Source: Gammaproteobacteria bacterium (GTDB lineage Bacteria; Pseudomonadota; Gammaproteobacteria; GCA-002705445; GCA-002716945). Taken from it: 35,587 nucleotides of DNA. The notes under the pieces were generated by a model. It made no database searches, was not told the DNA's origin, and saw only the letters and a list, made by a program, of their open reading frames with translations. Numbering within the stretch: the stretch's first letter is position 1; each line of letters opens with the position of its first letter. A program made the translations under genes and the position numbers. Shown here in pieces: positions 6,367-25,172 of this stretch. The stretch lies in contig PBFS01000002.1 in the NCBI GenBank assembly GCA_002718845.1, forward strand, positions 1-35,587, given 5' to 3'.

Positions 6367-7214
6367 CGACTGCATTGTTAATAATTTTTGCGCTAGTACT
6401 AGAATATATATATGATCCGATATCTAATATGAAAGATACACGCTTATTAAATACTTTGTTTGATAAGTTTAAAATATTATCTGAGGACTATATTTCTGAA
6501 AAATATAATATATATTTATTGTTCCCCATTAGTGTCTTTATTATTACTACTATTATTTTGTTTGTTTCAGGTTATTTTTTACACCCTTTATTTGAATTTT
6601 TGTTTAGCTTAATAATATTAATTTATTGTTTAAAACCAAGCGAATTTAATCTAATGGTTGAAAATTTAAAATTTTCTTTTAATGAGAATAAAGAATTAAA
6701 AACTGATGATAGATTTAAATATATTCTTCCGACTCAAAATAAAGAAAATTATGAGTCTATTGTTGATAACTTATTCTATAATTCCACAAGAAATACCTTT
6801 ACTGTAATATTTTCTTTTTTATTACTTGGTCCTGCTGGATGCTTAAGTTTTATAGTGTTAGATAATTATCTATATAACAAACAAATGAAAATAGATTTAC
6901 AAATAAAAAAGAAACTAAAGATTATAATATCAATTATTGAATATATACCTGTCCGTCTATCTATCTTTTCATATGCAATAGTTGCAGATTTTGAAGTTTG
7001 TATGAAATCTTGGAATTCCTTAAAAAAGAATTCTGATTTATATAAAGCAAATATAGCATCCATTAATCAAGTAGGCAGAGAATTGACTTCTAATACTATT
7101 AAGGATGATAATTTAGGTAATCGAATAGAATGCATACAAACTATAATTGCAAGATCTTTTTTAGCATGGTTAAGCTTAATTGCTCTTTTAGTTATCGGAG
7201 GTTTTTTTGTCTGA
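6363..7214 (+). CDS. ampE: AmpE-like inner-membrane protein
   Basis: The 283 aa protein has the same length as E. coli AmpE (284) and the same position directly after ampD with an ATGA overlap. Hydrophobic segments are seen near residues 1-17, 52-70, 72-90, 138-160, 180-205 and 264-283, with a hydrophilic loop at about 91-135. PF17113-type AmpE proteins carry residues such as NxxxRNTFTVIFWF/LLGPxG; here NSTRNTFTVIFSFLLLGPAG matches well. The biochemical role is not established; it was proposed as a sensor in beta-lactamase induction, but no ampC/ampR is present here. Its last 27 bp overlap the 3' end of convergent queH. Confidence 0.88.
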   Translation: MTTALLIIFALVLEYIYDPISNMKDTRLLNTLFDKFKILSEDYISEKYNIYLLFPISVFIITTIILFVSGYFLHPLFEFLFSLIILIYCLKPSEFNLMVENLKFSFNENKELKTDDRFKYILPTQNKENYESIVDNLFYNSTRNTFTVIFSFLLLGPAGCLSFIVLDNYLYNKQMKIDLQIKKKLKIIISIIEYIPVRLSIFSYAIVADFEVCMKSWNSLKKNSDLYKANIASINQVGRELTSNTIKDDNLGNRIECIQTIIARSFLAWLSLIALLVIGGFFV

Positions 7215-7856
7215 GTATGAATAGTAATTCTTACCTATAACTATCTTAGGTTTATTATTTCTTTCTCTCCAAATATTTGTGTCCCTGAGTGAATATATAC
7301 ATCCACAATATTCTTGCATATAAAAGTTCTCATGTTTAGAAACATCAAGCATTCTTTTAGATCCATTTTCTTTTCTCCAATTAAATGTCCAGTAAGATAT
7401 ATTTTTATATTTAGAAGCTGCATAAATTCCTGATTTATTAATTTGATCAAAATTTTTCCATCTTGAAATACCCAATGTACTAGAAAAAATATCAAAATTA
7501 TTTTTATATGCATATTCGGCTGTATTAGTAAATCGCATATCAAAACATGCAGAACACCTTGTTCCTCTCTCAGGATTCCATTCCATTCCTTTTGTCAAAT
7601 TAAACCATTGTTTTGGATTATAATCAGCATCTATAAAAGGTATATTGTTTTTCTCAGCAAATAGCATATTTTCCTCTTTACGAAAAATGTATTCTTTCGA
7701 TGGATGGATATTAGGATTATAGAAATATACAGTATAGTCTATACCTGATTCTTTAAGCCTTAACATAATGTCTCCCGAGCATGGGGCACAACATGAATGT
7801 AATAATAATTTTTTTTTATTATCAGGTAATTGTATTTTTACGTTATTACTATTCAT
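7188..7856 (-). CDS. queH: epoxyqueuosine reductase QueH
   Basis: QueH (former DUF208) catalyses the last step of queuosine tRNA modification, reducing epoxyqueuosine to queuosine, and is the non-orthologous replacement of QueG. Family cysteines are present: C22, C23 and C26 in LLHSCCAPCSG, C101 and C104 in GTRCSACFDMR, and C184 and C186 in EYCGCIYS. FFYNPNIHP-like YFYNPNIHPSKEY and STLGISRWKN are also diagnostic. The 222 aa length is normal. It overlaps tatD by 8 bp and is the last gene of the mcl operon-like run. The enzyme uses iron-sulfur chemistry, as the family is known to. Confidence 0.92.
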   Translation of the reverse strand: MNSNNVKIQLPDNKKKLLLHSCCAPCSGDIMLRLKESGIDYTVYFYNPNIHPSKEYIFRKEENMLFAEKNNIPFIDADYNPKQWFNLTKGMEWNPERGTRCSACFDMRFTNTAEYAYKNNFDIFSSTLGISRWKNFDQINKSGIYAASKYKNISYWTFNWRKENGSKRMLDVSKHENFYMQEYCGCIYSLRDTNIWRERNNKPKIVIGKNYYSYSDKKTSDN

Positions 7857-8649: not shown

Positions 8650-9537
8650 TTATAAAGTTTTTAAAACTGATTCAACGGTATCGCCAATTACTGATGGGTT
8701 TTTTGCAATTATTATTCCAGCCTCTTTTAAAATTTCAACTTTCTCTGCCGCTGATTCCCCATAAGCACTAACTATAGCGCCCGCATGGCCCATTCTCTTG
8801 CCTTTTGGCGCAGTCAGACCTGCTATATAAGCTATGACAGGCTTAGATACATTTTCTTTCGCAAAATCTGCTGCTTCAGCCTCTTGTGGGCCACCAATCT
8901 CTCCTATCATTAATATTGCTTTTGTTTCATCGTCTTGTTCAAATTTTTCAAGATGATCTTTAAAAGAACTTCCATTTATAGGGTCTCCCCCTATTCCTAC
9001 GCTAGTAGAAATTCCTATGCCAAGATTTTTCATTTGTTGCGCTGCTTCATATCCCAGTGTTCCAGATCTTCCAATAACACCAACGTTACCCTCTTTATAG
9101 ATATGTCCTGGCATAATTCCTAACATACATTTTCCAGGACTTATGACACCGGCACAATTAGGTCCTACCATAGTCATTCTATCTTCATTTTTATACCTTC
9201 TCATGTAACGCTTAACTTTAATCATGTCATGTGCTGGTATTCCGTCAGTAATAGCCACAAGTGTTTTAATTCCAGCATCAGCTGCTTCCATAGCAGAGTC
9301 TGCTGCAAAAGCTGGAGGCACAAATAAGATACTTGTATCAGCACCAGTTTCTTTAACAGCTTCTTTTACTGTATTAAAAACAGGCTTATCTAAGTGTGTT
9401 TGTCCACCTTTTCCTGGTGTTACGCCACCAACAATATTAGTTCCATACTCAATCATTTCTTGCGCATGGAAAGTTCCTATTTTCCCGGTAAATCCTTGTA
9501 CAATTATCTTAGAATCTTTGTTAATTAATATAGACAT
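8650..9537 (-). CDS. mtkB: malate--CoA ligase alpha subunit (SucD paralogue)
   Basis: The protein has 295 aa and the succinyl-CoA synthetase alpha fold: an N-terminal CoA-binding Rossmann domain (VQGFTGKIGTFHA, GGVTPGKGG) and a C-terminal ligase domain with the phosphorylated histidine H251 in RMGHAGAIVSAYG. Compared from memory with Methylobacterium MtkB, long blocks agree, such as GVTPGKGG, TVKEAV, KRYMRRY, GPNCAG and GIGGDPINGSSF. Together with the adjacent malyl-CoA lyase gene this favours malate--CoA ligase (malate thiokinase) over succinyl-CoA synthetase. It overlaps mtkA by 1 bp (TAATG). A dual role as SucD cannot be excluded. Confidence 0.85.
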   Translation of the reverse strand: MSILINKDSKIIVQGFTGKIGTFHAQEMIEYGTNIVGGVTPGKGGQTHLDKPVFNTVKEAVKETGADTSILFVPPAFAADSAMEAADAGIKTLVAITDGIPAHDMIKVKRYMRRYKNEDRMTMVGPNCAGVISPGKCMLGIMPGHIYKEGNVGVIGRSGTLGYEAAQQMKNLGIGISTSVGIGGDPINGSSFKDHLEKFEQDDETKAILMIGEIGGPQEAEAADFAKENVSKPVIAYIAGLTAPKGKRMGHAGAIVSAYGESAAEKVEILKEAGIIIAKNPSVIGDTVESVLKTL

Positions 9538-10715
9538 TACCCTTTTTTCCTCAACTTTTTTAATTCTTGAACAGCTTTGTTAGCAGCTTCTTCAAGGGTT
9601 GATGCTTCAATATATTTTACTTTGCTATCTTTTAATATTTTCATGCCTTCGTTAACGTTTGTGCCAGCTAATCTTATAACTAGTGGTTGCTCAATTTTAA
9701 TTTGATTTAATGCATCAACTATTCCTTGTGCAACCCAATCGCACCTGTTAATGCCAGCAAAAATATTAATTAATATAACTCGGACTTTAGGATCGCTAGA
9801 TATAAGTTTAAATGCTTTAACAAATTTTTCTGGTGTTGCTCCTCCTCCAACATCTAAAAAGTTCGCAGGTTGTCCTCCAGCAAGTTTAATCATATCCATT
9901 GACGCCATTGCTAAGCCCGCCCCGTTTATAATATTTCCAATATCTCCATCAAGTGCTATATAATTTAGACCTCTATCAGCAGCATACGTTTCTTTTGGGT
10001 CTTCTTGTGATTTATCTCTTAATTCTGCAATCTCAGGTATTCGATATAATGCGTTATCATCAAAAGACATTTTGCAATCTAATGCTAAAACATGATCGTC
10101 GCCTGTAAGAACCAATGGGTTAACTTCCACCATTGTTGCGTCTGAATTACTAAATGCTTTATAACATCCCAAAATTGCTTCTGCGCATCTTGATATTGCC
10201 TTTGCTTCTATTCCTAAGCCAAATGCTATTTCTCTAGCTTGAAAACTTTGCATTCCTACTGCAGCTTCTACTTTAGCTCTTATTAAAGTCTCTGGTTTTT
10301 CTTTTGCTATTTCTTCAACACTCATTCCACCTTCTGATGATGCTACAACCATTATGCTTTCTGAGCTTCTATCAAACACCAATCCAAGATAAAACTCTTT
10401 TTTTATATCGGTTGCTTCTTCTACATAAATTCTCTGTACTGTTTTCCCAGCTGGACCTGTTTGACTCGTTACCAACGTTTTGCCTAGTAGTTTATTTGCA
10501 GCGTCAGATACTTCCTGTAAACTTTTGCAAACAATTATACCGCCGGCCTTTCCTCTTGCTCCAGCATGAATCTGAGCCTTTACCACCCACATTTCACCGC
10601 CTAATTCTGCAGCTCTATCCTTGGCATTTTGAGGACTGTATGCTATGCCTCCTCTAGGCGTAGATACGCCAAATTTTGACAATATTTCTTTTGCCTGATA
10701 CTCATGTATGTCCAT
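9537..10715 (-). CDS. mtkA: malate--CoA ligase beta subunit (SucC paralogue)
   Basis: The 392 aa protein has an ATP-grasp domain (about 1-240; [28 protein letters not shown]) and a CoA-ligase domain (about 245-392; [26 protein letters not shown]). With MtkB it would convert malate, ATP and CoA to malyl-CoA, ADP and phosphate. Features seen in Methylobacterium MtkA and less typical of SucC include [30 protein letters not shown] and [12 protein letters not shown]. The gene is tied by 1-bp TAATG overlaps to both mcl and mtkB. Its base composition is visibly less AT-rich than the surroundings, as expected of a well-expressed gene. Confidence 0.87.
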
Positions 10716-11656
10716 TATTTTTTAGACTCTATTAACTTATTAATATTTACAATATTTTCTGCCATCCTCTCAGATGCAGCATCTATCATTCTGCCGTCTA
10801 ATTGAGCAGCTCCTTTCCCTTCTGCAGCTGCTTTTTTTAATTCCTCAATAATTCTTTTTGCTTTTTCAACTTCTTCAGCTGGAGGAGAAAATACATTATT
10901 TGCATGCTCAATTTGCGATGGGTGTATAGCCCACTTACCCTCTATTCCAATAGCTGCGCCTCTTTTAGCAGCTAATATATATCCATCAGGATCGTTAAAA
11001 TCCCCAAATGGTCCATCAATTGGACGTAAACCATATGCTCTACAAGTTGCTACTAATTTTGCTAAACCATGATGCCATTGATCGCCAGGATAATCCGGAT
11101 TCAAACCACCTATCACTACTGTCCGTGCTCTTAAGCTTGCAGCATAATCTGCTACTCCAAAATGGAGAGCTTCTAGTCTGTCTGAAGACTGAGCTATGTC
11201 TTCTATATTTACCATGCCCAAAGCAGTTTCTATTAAACACTCTAATCCTACTTTATCTTTAAGCCCTCTTTCCTGCTCTATTTGAGTAACCATGCAATCC
11301 ACCATATAAACATCGCTCTTAACTCCGACTTTTGGAATTAAAATAGTATCTAAATATTCTCCAGCTTGAACCATAATTTCAACAACATCTCTGTACATGT
11401 AGTGTGTGTCTAACCCATTAATTCTGACAGAAATAGTTTTACCATTACCCCTCCAATCCATTTCTTTGAGCGCTTTAATTACATTTTCTCTTGCGGTTAT
11501 TTTATCATTAGGTGCCACTGCATCTTCTAAATCTAAGAAAATATAATCTGCTTGTGATTTAAGTGCTTTTTCAAACATTTTTGGAGATGATCCTGGTACA
11601 GCTAACTCACTTCTTTGTAAACGTGGATAGGCATTTTTATAGGATGTGTGACTCAT
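10715..11656 (-). CDS. mcl: malyl-CoA lyase (HpcH/HpaI family)
   Basis: Malyl-CoA lyase cleaves (S)-malyl-CoA to acetyl-CoA and glyoxylate; it is the step after MtkAB in the serine cycle, and in other pathways can act on beta-methylmalyl-CoA. The 313 aa protein keeps the CitE-like barrel: [10 protein letters not shown] (40-49), the CoA-contacting arginine R78 in [15 protein letters not shown], Mg2+ ligands E143 (LIETALGM) and D170 (GVADYAAS), [12 protein letters not shown] (215-226) and [10 protein letters not shown] (240-249). The C-terminal [10 protein letters not shown] carries the lid aspartate of true Mcl. It is first of a five-gene run, with GGAG upstream of the ATG. Citrate lyase beta is excluded by the THYMYRDV block and by the mtkAB partners. 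Confidence 0.9.
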
Positions 11657-11798: not shown

Positions 11799-12722
11799 AT
11801 GAAAAATGCAGTAGATATTGTTAAATTAAACAAAATATACCGGAATGGCTTTAGAGCTCTTGAAAACATAAATCTATCTATTAAAAAAGGTGATTTTTTT
11901 GCATTTTTAGGTCCAAATGGTGCTGGCAAATCTACAGTTATAGGGATTATGTCATCTTTGGTTAGAATTACATCAGGCAAAGTATCTGTATTCGGGAAAG
12001 ACATACAAGACAATCCTGATTTTGCGAAAAGAAATATTGGATTAGTTCCACAAGAATATAACCTAAATCAATTTATTCCAATACAGGAAATAATGATTAA
12101 TGTTGCTGGTTATTTTGGTATTAATAAACATGATGCTAAATATCGTGCATCTAAGTTATTTCACCAATTAGGCATCTGGGAGAAACGATTTGATACTCCT
12201 AGGGAATTGTCTGGAGGAATGAAAAGACGATTAATGATTGCAAGAGCGCTTATACATAAACCAAAGATTTTAATTCTTGATGAACCTACGGCAGGTGTTG
12301 ATACCGAACTTAGATTAACAATGTGGGATTTCTTTCAAGAAATAAATAATAATGGAGTGACTATAATTTTAACAACTCACTATTTAGAAGAAGCTGAAAG
12401 ATTATGTAAAAACTTAGCTATAATTCACAAAGGCTCTATAATTCAAAATTCGTCTATGGATGAAGTTTATAATCTCAGAAAAGAGCATACTTATATTATT
12501 AAAACCGCAAATATTATTAATCAAAAATTAAATATAAGTGAGTTTTCACACAAATTAATAGATGCTCATACAATTGAGGTAACTGTAGATAATAATATCT
12601 CTATTACACAAATTATTGAAAAACTAAAATATTTGGATGTGAATGTAATGAATATTATTAGTAAGAGAAATAGATTGGAAGAACTATTTATGGAACTTAC
12701 TAAAGAGGAGCCAATAACATGA
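11799..12722 (+). CDS. ABC-2 type transporter, ATP-binding subunit (YadG-like)
   Basis: The 307 aa protein has one complete ABC ATPase domain: Walker A GPNGAGKST at 38-46, Q-loop glutamine Q85 (VPQEYNLN), signature LSGGM at 137-141, Walker B ILILDE at 157-162 and the switch histidine H194 (LTTHYLEEAE). About 75 extra residues at the C-terminus are typical of drug/polysaccharide ABC-2 exporters. E. coli YadG has the same length and is paired with YadH in the same way. The permease gene overlaps its end by 4 bp. The substrate is unknown; an export role is inferred from the family. Confidence 0.88.
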   Translation: MKNAVDIVKLNKIYRNGFRALENINLSIKKGDFFAFLGPNGAGKSTVIGIMSSLVRITSGKVSVFGKDIQDNPDFAKRNIGLVPQEYNLNQFIPIQEIMINVAGYFGINKHDAKYRASKLFHQLGIWEKRFDTPRELSGGMKRRLMIARALIHKPKILILDEPTAGVDTELRLTMWDFFQEINNNGVTIILTTHYLEEAERLCKNLAIIHKGSIIQNSSMDEVYNLRKEHTYIIKTANIINQKLNISEFSHKLIDAHTIEVTVDNNISITQIIEKLKYLDVNVMNIISKRNRLEELFMELTKEEPIT

Positions 12723-13489
12723 ATGTCTCATGGATGATTGCATATCAAACAATTGTTAAAAAAGAATTTGTAAGATTTGCAAGAATATGGATACAAACAA
12801 TACTCCCCTCTGTAATTACAATATTTTTATATATAACAATATTTGGAAATTTTATTGGTGATAGGATTGGCAATATAAAGAATTTTAGCTATGTAGATTA
12901 TATAATACCGGGTCTTATTCTTATGCCTATTATAACAAACTCTTATATGAATGTTGTTGGTTCTTTTTATAGTTCGCGTTTCCAAAAAAGTTGCGAGGAA
13001 TTGCTCGTAGCGCCTGTTCCTAATTGGGTAATATTACTTGGTTATATCTCAGGAGGTGTATTAAGAGCTTTTGTTGTTAGTATAGCGGTTTATTTTGTAA
13101 CAACATTATTTACTAAAATGCCTATTCATAATATTTACTTTGTTATTTTAATAACTTTTTTAACAGCCTTTTTATTTTCCACAGCAGGCTTTATTAATGC
13201 TGCTTATGCGAAAAGTTTTGATGATATAAATATTGTTCCAACTTTTATTCTAGCTCCATTGACCTATTTAGGTGGTACATTTTATTCCATAGATGCTCTA
13301 CCACAAATTTGGCAAGATATATCATTAGTAAACCCTATCGCATATATTGTTAGTTCTTACAGATATGCGTTTTTAGGTCTAGAGGAAACAAACATCTTGT
13401 TAGCGGTTCTTATAATAGTTACTTTCATAATTATTTTGTTTATAATAGCTCTAATAATACTTGCAAAAGGCATAGGTATTAAAAATTAA
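12719..13489 (+). CDS. ABC-2 type transporter, permease subunit (YadH-like)
   Basis: The 256 aa protein has six predicted membrane spans (about 25-45, 60-80, 105-130, 140-165, 170-190 and 228-250), which is the ABC-2 permease pattern. The block PLTYLGGTFYSIDALPQIWQ before the last span is the ABC-2 signature region. It forms a complete exporter with the upstream ATPase. It ends 2 bp before the B12 riboswitch P1 stem, so transcription could read through into the riboswitch unless the leader has its own promoter, which I could not identify. A link to B12 transport is not supported, because B12 importers use BtuC-type permeases. Confidence 0.86.
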   Translation: MNVSWMIAYQTIVKKEFVRFARIWIQTILPSVITIFLYITIFGNFIGDRIGNIKNFSYVDYIIPGLILMPIITNSYMNVVGSFYSSRFQKSCEELLVAPVPNWVILLGYISGGVLRAFVVSIAVYFVTTLFTKMPIHNIYFVILITFLTAFLFSTAGFINAAYAKSFDDINIVPTFILAPLTYLGGTFYSIDALPQIWQDISLVNPIAYIVSSYRYAFLGLEETNILLAVLIIVTFIIILFIIALIILAKGIGIKN

Positions 13490-13490
13490 G

Positions 13491-13606
13491 TCTTATGAAG
13501 TTGGGAAAATCCAGTGAATTTAGTCTGGTACTACACCCGTAACGGTAAAAAGTCCGAATACCAACATGATGAGAAACCCATAAAGCGGGATGCTTACATA
13601 GATGGG
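13491..13606 (+). ncRNA. cobalamin riboswitch, compact class-II (env8-like) form
   Basis: The leader shows the conserved B12 aptamer core: GGGAA at 13503-13507 and AACGGTAAAAAGTCCGAATACC at 13541-13562 (written here as the element ending in the CCGAATACC box). Stems are readable: P1 TCTTAT (13491-13496) with ATGAGA (13569-13574), GTTGG (13500-13504) with CCAAC (13561-13565), and CCAG (13511-13514) with CTGG (13525-13528). The long peripheral domain found in class I riboswitches is absent. A downstream hairpin (CCCAT 13577-13581 with ATGGG 13602-13606, inner AAGC/GCTT) presents CGGG (13586-13589), complementary to CCCG (13536-13539) in the upstream loop, as in the L5-L13 kissing contact of env8 RNA. 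It precedes a BtuB-like receptor gene. Confidence 0.85.
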
Positions 13607-13611
13607 CATTG

Positions 13612-13632
13612 ATTCTAGTATTTGGCTAGAAT
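13612..13632 (+). promoter_or_regulatory. leader hairpin, possible weak attenuator
   Basis: ATTCTAG (13612-13618) and CTAGAAT (13626-13632) form a perfect 7-bp stem with a 7-nt loop, followed by a short run of T. Only two G-C pairs are present, so termination would be weak; it may instead compete with the riboswitch or SD hairpins. Confidence 0.35.
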
Positions 13633-13646
13633 TTTCTATGTATTAG

Positions 13647-13669
13647 TATTCCTTATTATAAAAGGGGTA
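13647..13669 (+). promoter_or_regulatory. hairpin masking the btuB Shine-Dalgarno sequence
   Basis: The strong SD AAAGGGG (13661-13667, 6 nt before the ATG) can pair with TATTCCTT (13647-13654): T47-A69, A48-T68, two T-G wobbles, C51-G65, C52-G64, T53-A63 and T54-A62, with a 7-nt loop. This looks like the expression platform for translational control by the B12 aptamer. Confidence 0.55.
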
Positions 13670-13673
13670 TGTA

Positions 13674-15434
13674 ATGATTAAAAAGATAATTCTTGTAATG
13701 ATGTTTTCTATATCATCTATTAGTTTTGCTCAAACTGGTTTAGATGAAATTATTGTAACTCCAAACTTAAAGAAAACTACTATACACGAATCATTAAATA
13801 CAGTTTCAATAATAACAAAGGATGAAATAAGAAATTATGGTTACAAGTCTATAGATGAAATATTACAACATGTGAGCTCAATTAATATTGGAAGTAATGG
13901 TGGGTATGGACAAACAAAATCTATTTTTTTACGAGGCACGGAAAGTAATCATACAAAAGTCTTAATAGATGGTGTTAGTCTAAATCCTGGTACATTGGGT
14001 GTTCCTTCAATTCAACATGTTTCTCCACAAATAATAGAAAGAATTGAAATCTCAAAAGGTGGCATGTCAACATTATACGGAAGAGATGCTATAGGAGGAG
14101 TTATTAATATAATCACAAAGAATAGATTTGATAATGATGAAATAATTATTGAGGCTGGAAAAGATCAGACAAATAAATTTGGGCTTAGTAAGAGTTTTTC
14201 TAACGATATACATAATTTCACAATTAGTTTTATAGAATTACAATCAAATGGATATAAGGCAAAAGTAAATTCAACAAAAAATCATGCGTATATAAATAAA
14301 AATTTAAATCTTGTTTATTTATATAATGAAAAAAATAATAATCTTAAAATAAATTGGTATCAAAGTATTGGAAATACAGAATATGATAGCTTTGGCACTA
14401 ATTTAAATCATGACCATAAAGATTCTCTTGTAAAAGTAGCTTTAACTAAAAAATATAATAATTATAAAGATAAATTTATATTTATTAATAAAATAAATAA
14501 GATTGATCAGAAAGCGCTAAATGCTACAGACTATACACATACAAAAAGCACAGAACTTAATATTAATAGAAACTATTATAATTTGTTTAATACAGACACC
14601 ATTCTTGGTATAAATTTAACCAACGAGCAATTATCTGAACTATCATTCGGCACTGCATTTAAAAAAGGAAGTTGGATAAAGGAATTATATTTTCAATCTG
14701 AATATCAAATAAAAAAATCTATGTTTAACATTGGAGCTAGATATATTAATCATAATATATATAGTAATTTTTATTCTGGAAATATTAATTTTGGTCATGC
14801 TTTGACAGATAAAACTAAATTTATATTTGGTGTTTCTAAATCATTCAGGCCTCCTGATGGAACTGATTTATATGGATATGGCGGGAATAGTAATTTGCAA
14901 CCTGAAGAGTCTATCAATTCAGAAATATCTTTTAAAACAAAATTATCTAATGATAATGGCTTAATAATAACTTTTTTTAATAATAATATTAGAAATTTAA
15001 TTGAATCTGATGGAGCAACTATGCAAAATATCAATAAAGCTAAAATCAAAGGTCTGGAAATGACTTATTATAACAAGTACGGAAATTTAGATTATAAATT
15101 TGATTACACGCTATTAAATGCTAAGGATTTGAATAATGATACTGATTTATCTAGACGTCCAAAAAATAAATTAACTAGCAAAATGAGTTATAATTTTAAA
15201 AAAAATAATAAATTAGGCATTTCCATGGTTGCCTCTAGTAAGAGTGATAACTCGATTTATGACTCTAATGTATTAGGGGGATATACAATTTTTAATTTAA
15301 CGTATTTATATGATACTATTGGCTATACTTGGAAGTTTAATATGAACAATGTATTTAATAAAAAATATAGACAAGCTCATAACTATAATAGCGAAGGAAG
15401 ATCATATTATATCAGCTTTATAAATAATTTTTAA
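13674..15434 (+). CDS. btuB: TonB-dependent outer-membrane receptor, probably for cobalamin (BtuB-like)
   Basis: The 586 aa protein has a signal peptide (about residues 1-20, MIKKIILVMMFSISSISFAQ), a TonB box at 24-30 (DEIIVTP), a plug domain to about residue 150 (LLDGVSL-like VLIDGVSLNPGT, RIEISKGGMSTLYGRDAIGG) and a beta-barrel ending in a terminal phenylalanine, as outer-membrane insertion requires. E. coli BtuB has 614 aa. Assignment to B12 rests mainly on the cobalamin riboswitch directly upstream; sequence alone would leave siderophores or other substrates open. The DUF6580-like gene follows after 1 bp, indicating a two-gene operon under the riboswitch. Confidence 0.85.
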   Translation: MIKKIILVMMFSISSISFAQTGLDEIIVTPNLKKTTIHESLNTVSIITKDEIRNYGYKSIDEILQHVSSINIGSNGGYGQTKSIFLRGTESNHTKVLIDGVSLNPGTLGVPSIQHVSPQIIERIEISKGGMSTLYGRDAIGGVINIITKNRFDNDEIIIEAGKDQTNKFGLSKSFSNDIHNFTISFIELQSNGYKAKVNSTKNHAYINKNLNLVYLYNEKNNNLKINWYQSIGNTEYDSFGTNLNHDHKDSLVKVALTKKYNNYKDKFIFINKINKIDQKALNATDYTHTKSTELNINRNYYNLFNTDTILGINLTNEQLSELSFGTAFKKGSWIKELYFQSEYQIKKSMFNIGARYINHNIYSNFYSGNINFGHALTDKTKFIFGVSKSFRPPDGTDLYGYGGNSNLQPEESINSEISFKTKLSNDNGLIITFFNNNIRNLIESDGATMQNINKAKIKGLEMTYYNKYGNLDYKFDYTLLNAKDLNNDTDLSRRPKNKLTSKMSYNFKKNNKLGISMVASSKSDNSIYDSNVLGGYTIFNLTYLYDTIGYTWKFNMNNVFNKKYRQAHNYNSEGRSYYISFINNF

Positions 15435-15435
15435 T

Positions 15436-15948
15436 ATGAAGAATTTTGTCGCGCCCTTATTAATATTTTTACTTTTAATTTTATCAAGGTATATGAGTGA
15501 TATACCAAACTTTACTCCTACTATCTCCTTCATTCTATTTTCTAGCTATTTTATTAATAACAAATATACTTCTATGTTAACTGTATTAGCTTCTCAAATT
15601 ATTGCTGATATATATATTGGTACATATTCTTATGTATTTTTTGTCTACTTATCTTATGTAATAATTGTTCTGATTGGAGAATTCTATTTGAAAGAATTGA
15701 AATTTAAAAGTGTGATAATTTCCTCTTTTTTAGCTGCTTCAATATTTTTTATAGTTAGTAATTTTGGTTTCTGGTTCACTGAATCTTTATATAGTCATGA
15801 CTTAAATGGTTTAATAACATGCTATGTAGCGGCAATACCATTTTTTGACGATTCATTAATATCAGCATCGCTATATTCTTTAACTATATATATTATTTAT
15901 AAGTTTTATAAAAACTTATTTCCTGAAGCAAATATAGTAACTAAATAA
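15436..15948 (+). CDS. DUF6580-like six-span membrane protein, candidate inner-membrane B12 transporter
   Basis: The 170 aa protein is almost entirely hydrophobic, with five or six spans (about 4-18, 28-42, 45-62, 65-83, 92-112 and 135-157). Motifs are PNFTPTISFILF (24-35), ADIYIGTYSYVF (57-68), SNFGFWFTE (108-116) and GLITCYVAAIPFFDDSL (125-141). These match what I recall of the DUF6580 family, whose size and topology resemble ECF-transporter substrate-binding (S) subunits. The single cysteine C129 lies in the conserved CYxxAIPFF block. It is 1 bp downstream of the btuB-like gene and under the B12 riboswitch. A role in moving cobalamin or a cobalamin precursor across the inner membrane is inference. 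Confidence 0.7.
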   Translation: MKNFVAPLLIFLLLILSRYMSDIPNFTPTISFILFSSYFINNKYTSMLTVLASQIIADIYIGTYSYVFFVYLSYVIIVLIGEFYLKELKFKSVIISSFLAASIFFIVSNFGFWFTESLYSHDLNGLITCYVAAIPFFDDSLISASLYSLTIYIIYKFYKNLFPEANIVTK

Positions 15949-24017: not shown

Positions 24018-25172
24018 ATGGTTGATATTATCATACACAAGTCTAAACAGTATATTAAAGAGGATATTGATTACTATTGTTCAGATATTCGTGACAAACA
24101 TGGGATGATTGCACCTAGCGACAATCTTGTTAGTTTATCCTGTGATTCTAATATTCTTCATTCCATTCCTTCTAACCATGAAATATCATCCATTTATTAC
24201 CCATTTGAGAAAAACATTTTTCATAGAATATATATTGGTATAAGTTTTCCACTATTTGCAAATAATTGGGGGGCTGCGTTTCTACGCCATCTTATGTGTT
24301 TAATAAATAAAGATGGTGCGGTTATACTGCCAGTGTATGCTGAAAGACAAGGAGTAGAAAAAAATTATTGGTCAAGAAGTTCACTAGAAGTGATATTTCA
24401 AAGTAGACAAAAATGGTGGGGGGAAAGTAATATTTGGGCTGAAAATGATGGGGTGATGTCTATGAGGATAGGCAAAAAAGAACCTCCTAAAAAAAATAGT
24501 ACTTTAAATTATTTGTTCGATTGTGAATCAGATAATATTAAAAGTAAAGATAATCCTTACGTTAACAAAAGAATAGCAAGACATCACAAAAATGGAACAA
24601 TGAGCGCAATTGTAGAACAGATAATTATTAATTACTTTGGTAGAAAAAAAGGTATTAGTTATTGTGATATACATGGAGATATTTTATTAACATCAGAAAT
24701 TTTAATGAGTGATTATATAACTGTGAATAGCATAACTCAAATAATAAATGGTGATTTAAATATAACTGATATCAAAAAATATCTAGAAGAAGGTTTTGAT
24801 AATAAAATACATATAATGTCACATCAAGATAAATTTCCAAACACAAATAATAACTTTGATGTTATAAGTATGTTAAATATTTTTGAAAATGAATCTGAAG
24901 ATTTTAAAAAGGATTGTATAAAAAAAGCTTTGAATAATTTAAATAGAAATGGTGTGTTAATCATGCAAGATAAATCATTTAATAATAAAGAATTTACCAA
25001 TAGCATTATTTCATCTATTTCTAACCTTGAACATGCTCAATACTCATCGATTGTAGCAACAAAACATAATAAAGGAATTAATATACCTCATTATTCAGAT
25101 ATAATATTTAAAGAGTTGCAGATAGAAAATGATAACAGACAAGATTTAATAAATATATTTTATAAAAAATGA
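24018..25172 (+). CDS. unknown protein, possibly tandem degenerate methyltransferase-like domains
   Basis: I do not recognise a family for this 384 aa soluble protein. Two halves each look like the later part of a class I methyltransferase fold: FLRHLMCLINKDGAVILPV (about 88-106) and KKALNNLNRNGVLIMQDKS (about 307-325), each resembling the 'leader.. L..GG.lil' strand. SYCDIHGDILLTSE (about 214-227) could be a decayed motif I, without the glycine-rich loop. FDVISMLNIFENE precedes the second half. The AGCS symporter gene overlaps its end by 4 bp. No SD is evident, and a TATAAT ends 7 bp before the ATG. Confidence 0.6.
   Translation: MVDIIIHKSKQYIKEDIDYYCSDIRDKHGMIAPSDNLVSLSCDSNILHSIPSNHEISSIYYPFEKNIFHRIYIGISFPLFANNWGAAFLRHLMCLINKDGAVILPVYAERQGVEKNYWSRSSLEVIFQSRQKWWGESNIWAENDGVMSMRIGKKEPPKKNSTLNYLFDCESDNIKSKDNPYVNKRIARHHKNGTMSAIVEQIIINYFGRKKGISYCDIHGDILLTSEILMSDYITVNSITQIINGDLNITDIKKYLEEGFDNKIHIMSHQDKFPNTNNNFDVISMLNIFENESEDFKKDCIKKALNNLNRNGVLIMQDKSFNNKEFTNSIISSISNLEHAQYSSIVATKHNKGINIPHYSDIIFKELQIENDNRQDLINIFYKK

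Follow-up and report, generated by a model that had tools for sequence, protein, structure and literature searches.

In the gammaproteobacterial DNA analysed here, an AdoCbl-II riboswitch, a BtuB-like receptor and a small DUF6580 membrane protein very probably constitute a riboswitch-controlled, two-component unit for vitamin B12 uptake, in which the receptor would serve the outer membrane and the DUF6580 protein is the candidate inner-membrane transporter. Most bacteria that require B12 import it. The genome from which the window, that is, the whole stretch of 35,587 nucleotides, derives has 973,508 bases and is 82.6% complete, and the analysis covered 25 genomes from its order, each of about 1 Mb. 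The features of the unit are the following.

13489-13571, + strand: AdoCbl-II cobalamin riboswitch aptamer (RF01689), from cmscan
13572-13673, + strand: leader from the aptamer to the receptor start, read from the sequence
13674-15434, + strand: BtuB-like TonB-dependent outer-membrane receptor, 586 aa, with PF07715 (Plug) and PF00593 (barrel)
15436-15948, + strand: DUF6580 protein, 170 aa, with six helices and an S-component fold, from PF20221, AlphaFold2 and Foldseek

The preliminary description had reported a receptor followed after 1 bp by a small six-span protein, and the open reading frames lie exactly in this way, with 1 base between the receptor stop and the DUF6580 start. The riboswitch, which that description lacked, is located directly 5' of the pair, between the receptor and upstream ABC-2 transporter genes (11799-13489). 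No other Rfam match in the window exceeds its threshold. The riboswitch scores 51.2 bits (window-wide E = 9e-10) against a gathering score of 36.5, and the match is full-length, covering model positions 1-81 of 81. In the leader, an AT-rich inverted repeat (13612-13618 and 13626-13632) followed by four T may be part of the expression platform; this repeat was not called by the terminator scan, and the promoter and terminator scan of the window gave nothing exceeding shuffles. The receptor contains the Plug (2.7e-26) and barrel (3.6e-31) domains, and among the NCBIfam models it scores highest with TIGR01779, "TonB-dependent vitamin B12 receptor" (5e-77; 260 bits), although the equivalog cut-off of 600 is not reached. 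Its assignment as a B12 receptor is supported by the riboswitch control.

The small protein matches PF20221 (DUF6580), a family that Pfam lists with no assigned function, at 2.5e-35 and 122.5 bits, with a curated cut-off of 27, and the same profile is matched by 79 out of 79 of its relatives. Six membrane helices are predicted, and a single cysteine (C129) is present. An AlphaFold2 model built on an alignment of 79 sequences shows six helices with a pLDDT of 94.1 and a pTM of 0.88. When this model was compared with the PDB by Foldseek, the six best matches were all ECF S-components (TmRibU, ThiT, FolT and PanT), being the only ones above a probability of 0.4; their probabilities are 0.96-1.0 with weak E-values (0.11 and above), as would be expected of small all-helical membrane proteins. 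A second model, of a CPR member of the family (L161), again matched S-components, with TM values up to 0.72, so the fold is found in two independent models at a TM of about 0.6-0.7. The resemblance to ECF S-components proposed earlier is thus borne out at the level of the predicted fold. Moreover, the invariant or near-invariant residues of the family (R18, N25, P28, D58, Y71, N109, W113, Y119 and Y130) map at one end of the bundle of helices, in or beside loops 1, 3 and 5. These loops have no lysine or arginine, which are present in loop 4 and in the C-terminal tail, and this suggests that the conserved site faces the periplasm, the side where S-components bind their substrates.

The association with the riboswitch is conserved in the order. 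AdoCbl-II is found in 20 of the 25 genomes and DUF6580 in 21, in both cases including all 11 of good quality, and each occurs as one copy per genome. In the 19 genomes having both, the riboswitch always precedes DUF6580 in the same orientation, at 1.9-2.2 kb in 18 of them and at about 4 kb in the remaining one. On the other hand, FecCD/BtuC permeases were detected in none of the 25 genomes, the window's own 82.6% complete genome included (control positive in 13 of 14), and the same holds for EcfT/CbiQ (0/25; 10 of 14 reference genomes positive). The absence of both leaves no other recognised inner-membrane route in the order among those tested, and the idea that BtuCDF has been replaced agrees with the lack of a BtuC-type permease in the window genome and in all its order relatives, according to the profile counts. 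CobS, the cobalamin synthase, is likewise found in 0 of 25 genomes, with positive control genomes. Therefore, this order retains a B12 sensor and is missing the final step in the synthesis of B12.

A comparison at the level of the class leads to the same picture. DUF6580 occurs in 36 of 229 evenly drawn genomes, and FecCD permeases, counted as genuine only at E < 1e-30 (matches from 1e-4 to 1e-12 probably represent related ABC permeases), are present in 1 of these 36 genomes versus 116 of the 193 without DUF6580. The corresponding Fisher p-value of 1.3e-11, and that of 1e-10 obtained among genomes bearing RF00174 (1/22 with DUF6580 versus 107/141 without), serve as guides because the genomes are not phylogenetically independent. 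The exception is a single genome (G049), where DUF6580 and a FecCD permease coexist. Of the 22 class genomes with RF00174 and DUF6580, 11 have the two no more than 5 kb apart, while 0.11 would be expected by chance placement, and a frequent gene order is riboswitch, BtuB-like receptor, in some cases a TonB-like gene, PduO adenosyltransferase and DUF6580. Chance adjacency of riboswitch and DUF6580 is ruled out by these class-wide statistics together with the 19 collinear genomes of the order.

The family extends well beyond this class. A scan of one genome per species, over about 85,000 species, gave at least 561 DUF6580 sites. The best 80 of them, which are not a random sample because they were picked by similarity to the window, belong, according to their record labels, to Gammaproteobacteria, SAR11, SAR86, Flavobacteria, Bacteroidales, Ignavibacteria, Marinimicrobia, Omnitrophota, Planctomycetes, CPR and others. 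The link to streamlined marine bacteria drawn in the preliminary description is consequently correct in that such bacteria carry DUF6580 and too narrow in that Bacteroidales, Ignavibacteria, Omnitrophota, Planctomycetes and CPR carry it as well. Outside the order, a cobalamin-class riboswitch was found in 36 of 65 distinct DUF6580 loci scanned (on the strand of the gene, 24 upstream and 9 downstream; on the opposite strand, 3), and about a third to half of the loci have no riboswitch nearby. The expected co-occurrence with cobalamin riboswitches is therefore strong in the order, in the class and in other phyla. Apart from cobalamin riboswitches, the only ones detected in a search with 4227 families over all DUF6580 loci were of the SAM-II (three) and SAH (one) classes. 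The SAM-II elements lie directly 5' of DUF6580 in three marine Flavobacteriia (L130, L132 and L145), suggesting that in these cases the gene is controlled by SAM or methionine status rather than by B12 itself.

The genes that recur next to DUF6580 are also related to B12. Across 104 loci, a BtuB-like receptor is found in 35 and a PduO adenosyltransferase in 19, a representative of the latter matching TIGR00636 at 6e-61. In four CPR loci (L121, L147, L161 and L189), the order is an NrdR-like gene, an NrdJ-type reductase, DUF6580 and PduO; the NrdJ of L161 passes TIGR02504 (adenosylcobalamin-dependent), and in L121 and L161 an AdoCbl-II riboswitch is located just 5' of DUF6580. These loci represent a compact module for B12 uptake and use in reduced genomes. 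Bacteria of the CPR have no outer membrane, and the presence of DUF6580 without a receptor therefore fits the prediction for an inner-membrane transporter. In a further locus (L097), an adenosylcobalamin-dependent reductase of the RTPR type follows DUF6580. Also, B12-binding radical SAM-like proteins are encoded near DUF6580 and the receptor in four SAR11 loci (L116, L125, L134 and L158), where they possibly represent the use of B12.

Based on these data, a sequence of events can be proposed for the unit. At low intracellular cobalamin, the AdoCbl-II riboswitch would permit expression, as expected of its class, and the BtuB-like receptor, energised by TonB as in its family, would carry cobalamin into the periplasm. 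There, DUF6580, with its predicted fold, would bind cobalamin in a periplasm-facing pocket presumably lined by R18, N25, P28, D58, N109, W113, Y119 and Y130, and would then move it inward. Since neither an ECF ATPase module nor BtuCD is present, transport by DUF6580 would probably proceed through binding and reorientation, and net uptake could be kept up if cobalamin is bound or modified once it reaches the cytoplasm. The role of DUF6580 as the inner-membrane route for B12, advanced in the preliminary description, is supported computationally by the riboswitch linkage, the absence of BtuC and the S-component fold. BtuCDF, a type II ABC importer, has the same presumed job, which is to bring cobalamin from the periplasm to the cytoplasm after BtuB; DUF6580, however, is an unrelated small protein with neither an ATPase nor a periplasmic binding protein, and it and the FecCD permeases exclude each other in the class.

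Among the known systems, BtuM from Thiobacillus denitrificans, a solitary B12 S-component, shares with DUF6580 a small six-helix S-component fold, a genomic link to B12 and an organism without an ECF module (PMC6072759). BtuM and some BioY proteins work alone (PMC11109136). BtuM requires Cys80, located in loop L3, as a cobalt ligand (PMC6072759), whereas C129 of the window protein is in helix 6 and its loop 3 has no cysteine. Cysteine occupies the C129 column in 67 of 80 members from a diverse set and in 32 of 54 from the class set. Nonetheless, alanine or serine takes its place in members such as L129, L144 and the alanine-bearing gammaproteobacterial L151, which stand behind a cobalamin riboswitch together with a receptor and an adenosyltransferase, so ligation by cysteine cannot be the mechanism of the whole family. 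From the earlier suggestion of a BtuM-like cysteine, the single C129 is real, but it is not in the loop used by BtuM and it is replaced in B12-linked members; this replacement and the helix 6 position rule out the BtuM-type cysteine as a general mechanism, although cysteine ligation is still possible in the members that bear the residue. BtuM is not among the PDB matches listed for DUF6580, either by sequence or by fold.

The second relevant system is CbrT, the S-component of the ECF-type B12 transporter from Lactobacillus delbrueckii (PDB code: 6FNP), which also combines an S-component fold with a B12 context, and whose nrdJ-cbrS-cbrT-pduO cluster is mirrored by the CPR layout of NrdJ, DUF6580 and PduO (PMC5997447). 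One alignment profile (A1) matches CbrT (6fnp_A) at 1.3e-4, with an R...PNxxP region common to both, and no match was obtained with four other alignments (A2-A5) or with the single sequence; for this reason, sequence homology is not used as a main argument. CbrT works with an ECF ATPase module, whereas the order of the window has no EcfT and the AxxxA motif of helix 1 is nearly absent from DUF6580. By the tests made, DUF6580 is neither a BtuM nor a member of the ECF family.

The substrate deserves separate consideration, because the riboswitch and the neighbouring genes indicate a B12 economy in general and not strictly the complete vitamin. DUF6580 could then transport cobinamide, alpha-ribazole, another lower-ligand precursor or cobalt instead of complete cobalamin. 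S-component-fold proteins for precursors exist. Known B12 binders, including CbrT, take cobinamide too (PMC5997447). This alternative is nevertheless unlikely: CobS, which would be needed to finish cobalamin from a precursor, is missing from every genome of the order, the pairing of DUF6580 with a TonB-dependent receptor is kept in the 35 loci mentioned above, and in CPR the partners NrdJ and PduO require a complete corrinoid.

A different possibility is that DUF6580 belongs to an ordinary ECF transporter, sharing an ATPase module encoded elsewhere in the genome. The predicted fold is consistent with this, as are the weak matches of single members to PF12822 ECF_trnsprt (1.1e-4) and PF07155 (0.002). 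We regard it as very improbable, given that the EcfT/CbiQ search was negative in all 25 genomes with 10 of 14 controls positive, and that the helix-1 AxxxA motif, which docks S-components on EcfT (PMC11109136), is present in only 3 of 80 DUF6580 members. The rarity of this motif and the missing EcfT indicate that, most probably, DUF6580 works alone. Finally, it is scarcely credible that the upstream ABC-2 genes, which neighbour the unit both in the window and in relatives from the order (for instance L104, L105, L106, L108 and L109), or an unrecognised ABC system import B12 with DUF6580 as an accessory, because their permease matches ABC2_membrane (PF01061 7e-35), a family made up mainly of exporters, these genes precede the riboswitch and so are outside its control, CPR loci hold DUF6580 without them, and they do not recur beside DUF6580 outside the order as the receptor, PduO and riboswitch do.

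Thus, DUF6580 is most likely a solitary candidate cobalamin importer with an S-component fold. Its treatment as a candidate family of ECF-independent cobalamin transporters with this fold is well supported, and PF20221, a family without a function in Pfam, is now linked to B12. Points against it are the weak Foldseek E-values, the CbrT match obtained from a single alignment, the loci outside the order with no riboswitch nearby, the genome G049 and the failure to detect a B12-dependent enzyme in the 99% complete relative described below. The wider proposal, that DUF6580 is a widespread ECF- and ATP-independent cobalamin importer replacing BtuCD across many phyla (SAR11, streamlined marine Gammaproteobacteria and CPR) and operating without the cobalt-cysteine bond of BtuM, is somewhat favored by the present analysis. 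In the 5.39 million open papers searched, a collection that leaves most subscription papers and bioRxiv preprints outside, no mention of DUF6580 or PF20221 was found, and the open papers on novel B12 transporters contained nothing on it. If the proposal is true, a function would be assigned to an orphan family, and abundant ocean bacteria as well as CPR would have a named protein for the inner-membrane step of B12 uptake. Moreover, B12 dependence would become predictable in genomes that seem to have no transporter because BtuCDF is missing, and DUF6580 would offer a compact model of the S-component fold operating without its ATPase. Complementation of an Escherichia coli mutant, suggested in the preliminary description, would take place in a host that has no ECF module (PMC6072759); a suitable strain is already in existence.

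As for the use of B12 in the host, all three contigs of a relative (G015, L202-L258; 1.1 Mb, 99% complete) were read. This genome keeps DUF6580, one TonB-like protein and one detectable TonB-dependent receptor, the B12 one; MetH, MetE, QueG, methylmalonyl-CoA mutase, NrdJ, PduO/BtuR and a B12-binding radical SAM protein were undetected in it. Some members of the order have B12-binding radical SAM proteins, two of them adjoining DUF6580 (L107 and L193), and a search for PF02310 proteins in the incomplete genome of the window was negative. The weak PF02310 matches in L196-L199 and L201 were discarded as B12 proteins, being in fact IMP dehydrogenase. A use in methionine synthesis is unsupported in the order, where neither the MetH activation domain nor MetE/Meth_synt_2 was found. 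Queuosine synthesis was likewise rejected, since the relative is without QueG and the window encodes the epoxyqueuosine reductase QueH (7188-7856, - strand; PF02677 3e-63), a B12-independent alternative to QueG, and so was ribonucleotide reduction, for which the window carries class I NrdAB.

Two further observations concern the rest of the window. At 8650-11656 (- strand), a pair of subunits of the succinyl/malate-CoA ligase type is followed by an enzyme of the HpcH/citrate-lyase family, a gene set suggestive of a serine-cycle-like malyl-CoA module. Also, at 24018-25172 (+ strand), there is an open reading frame of 384 aa without a Pfam match at 1e-5.
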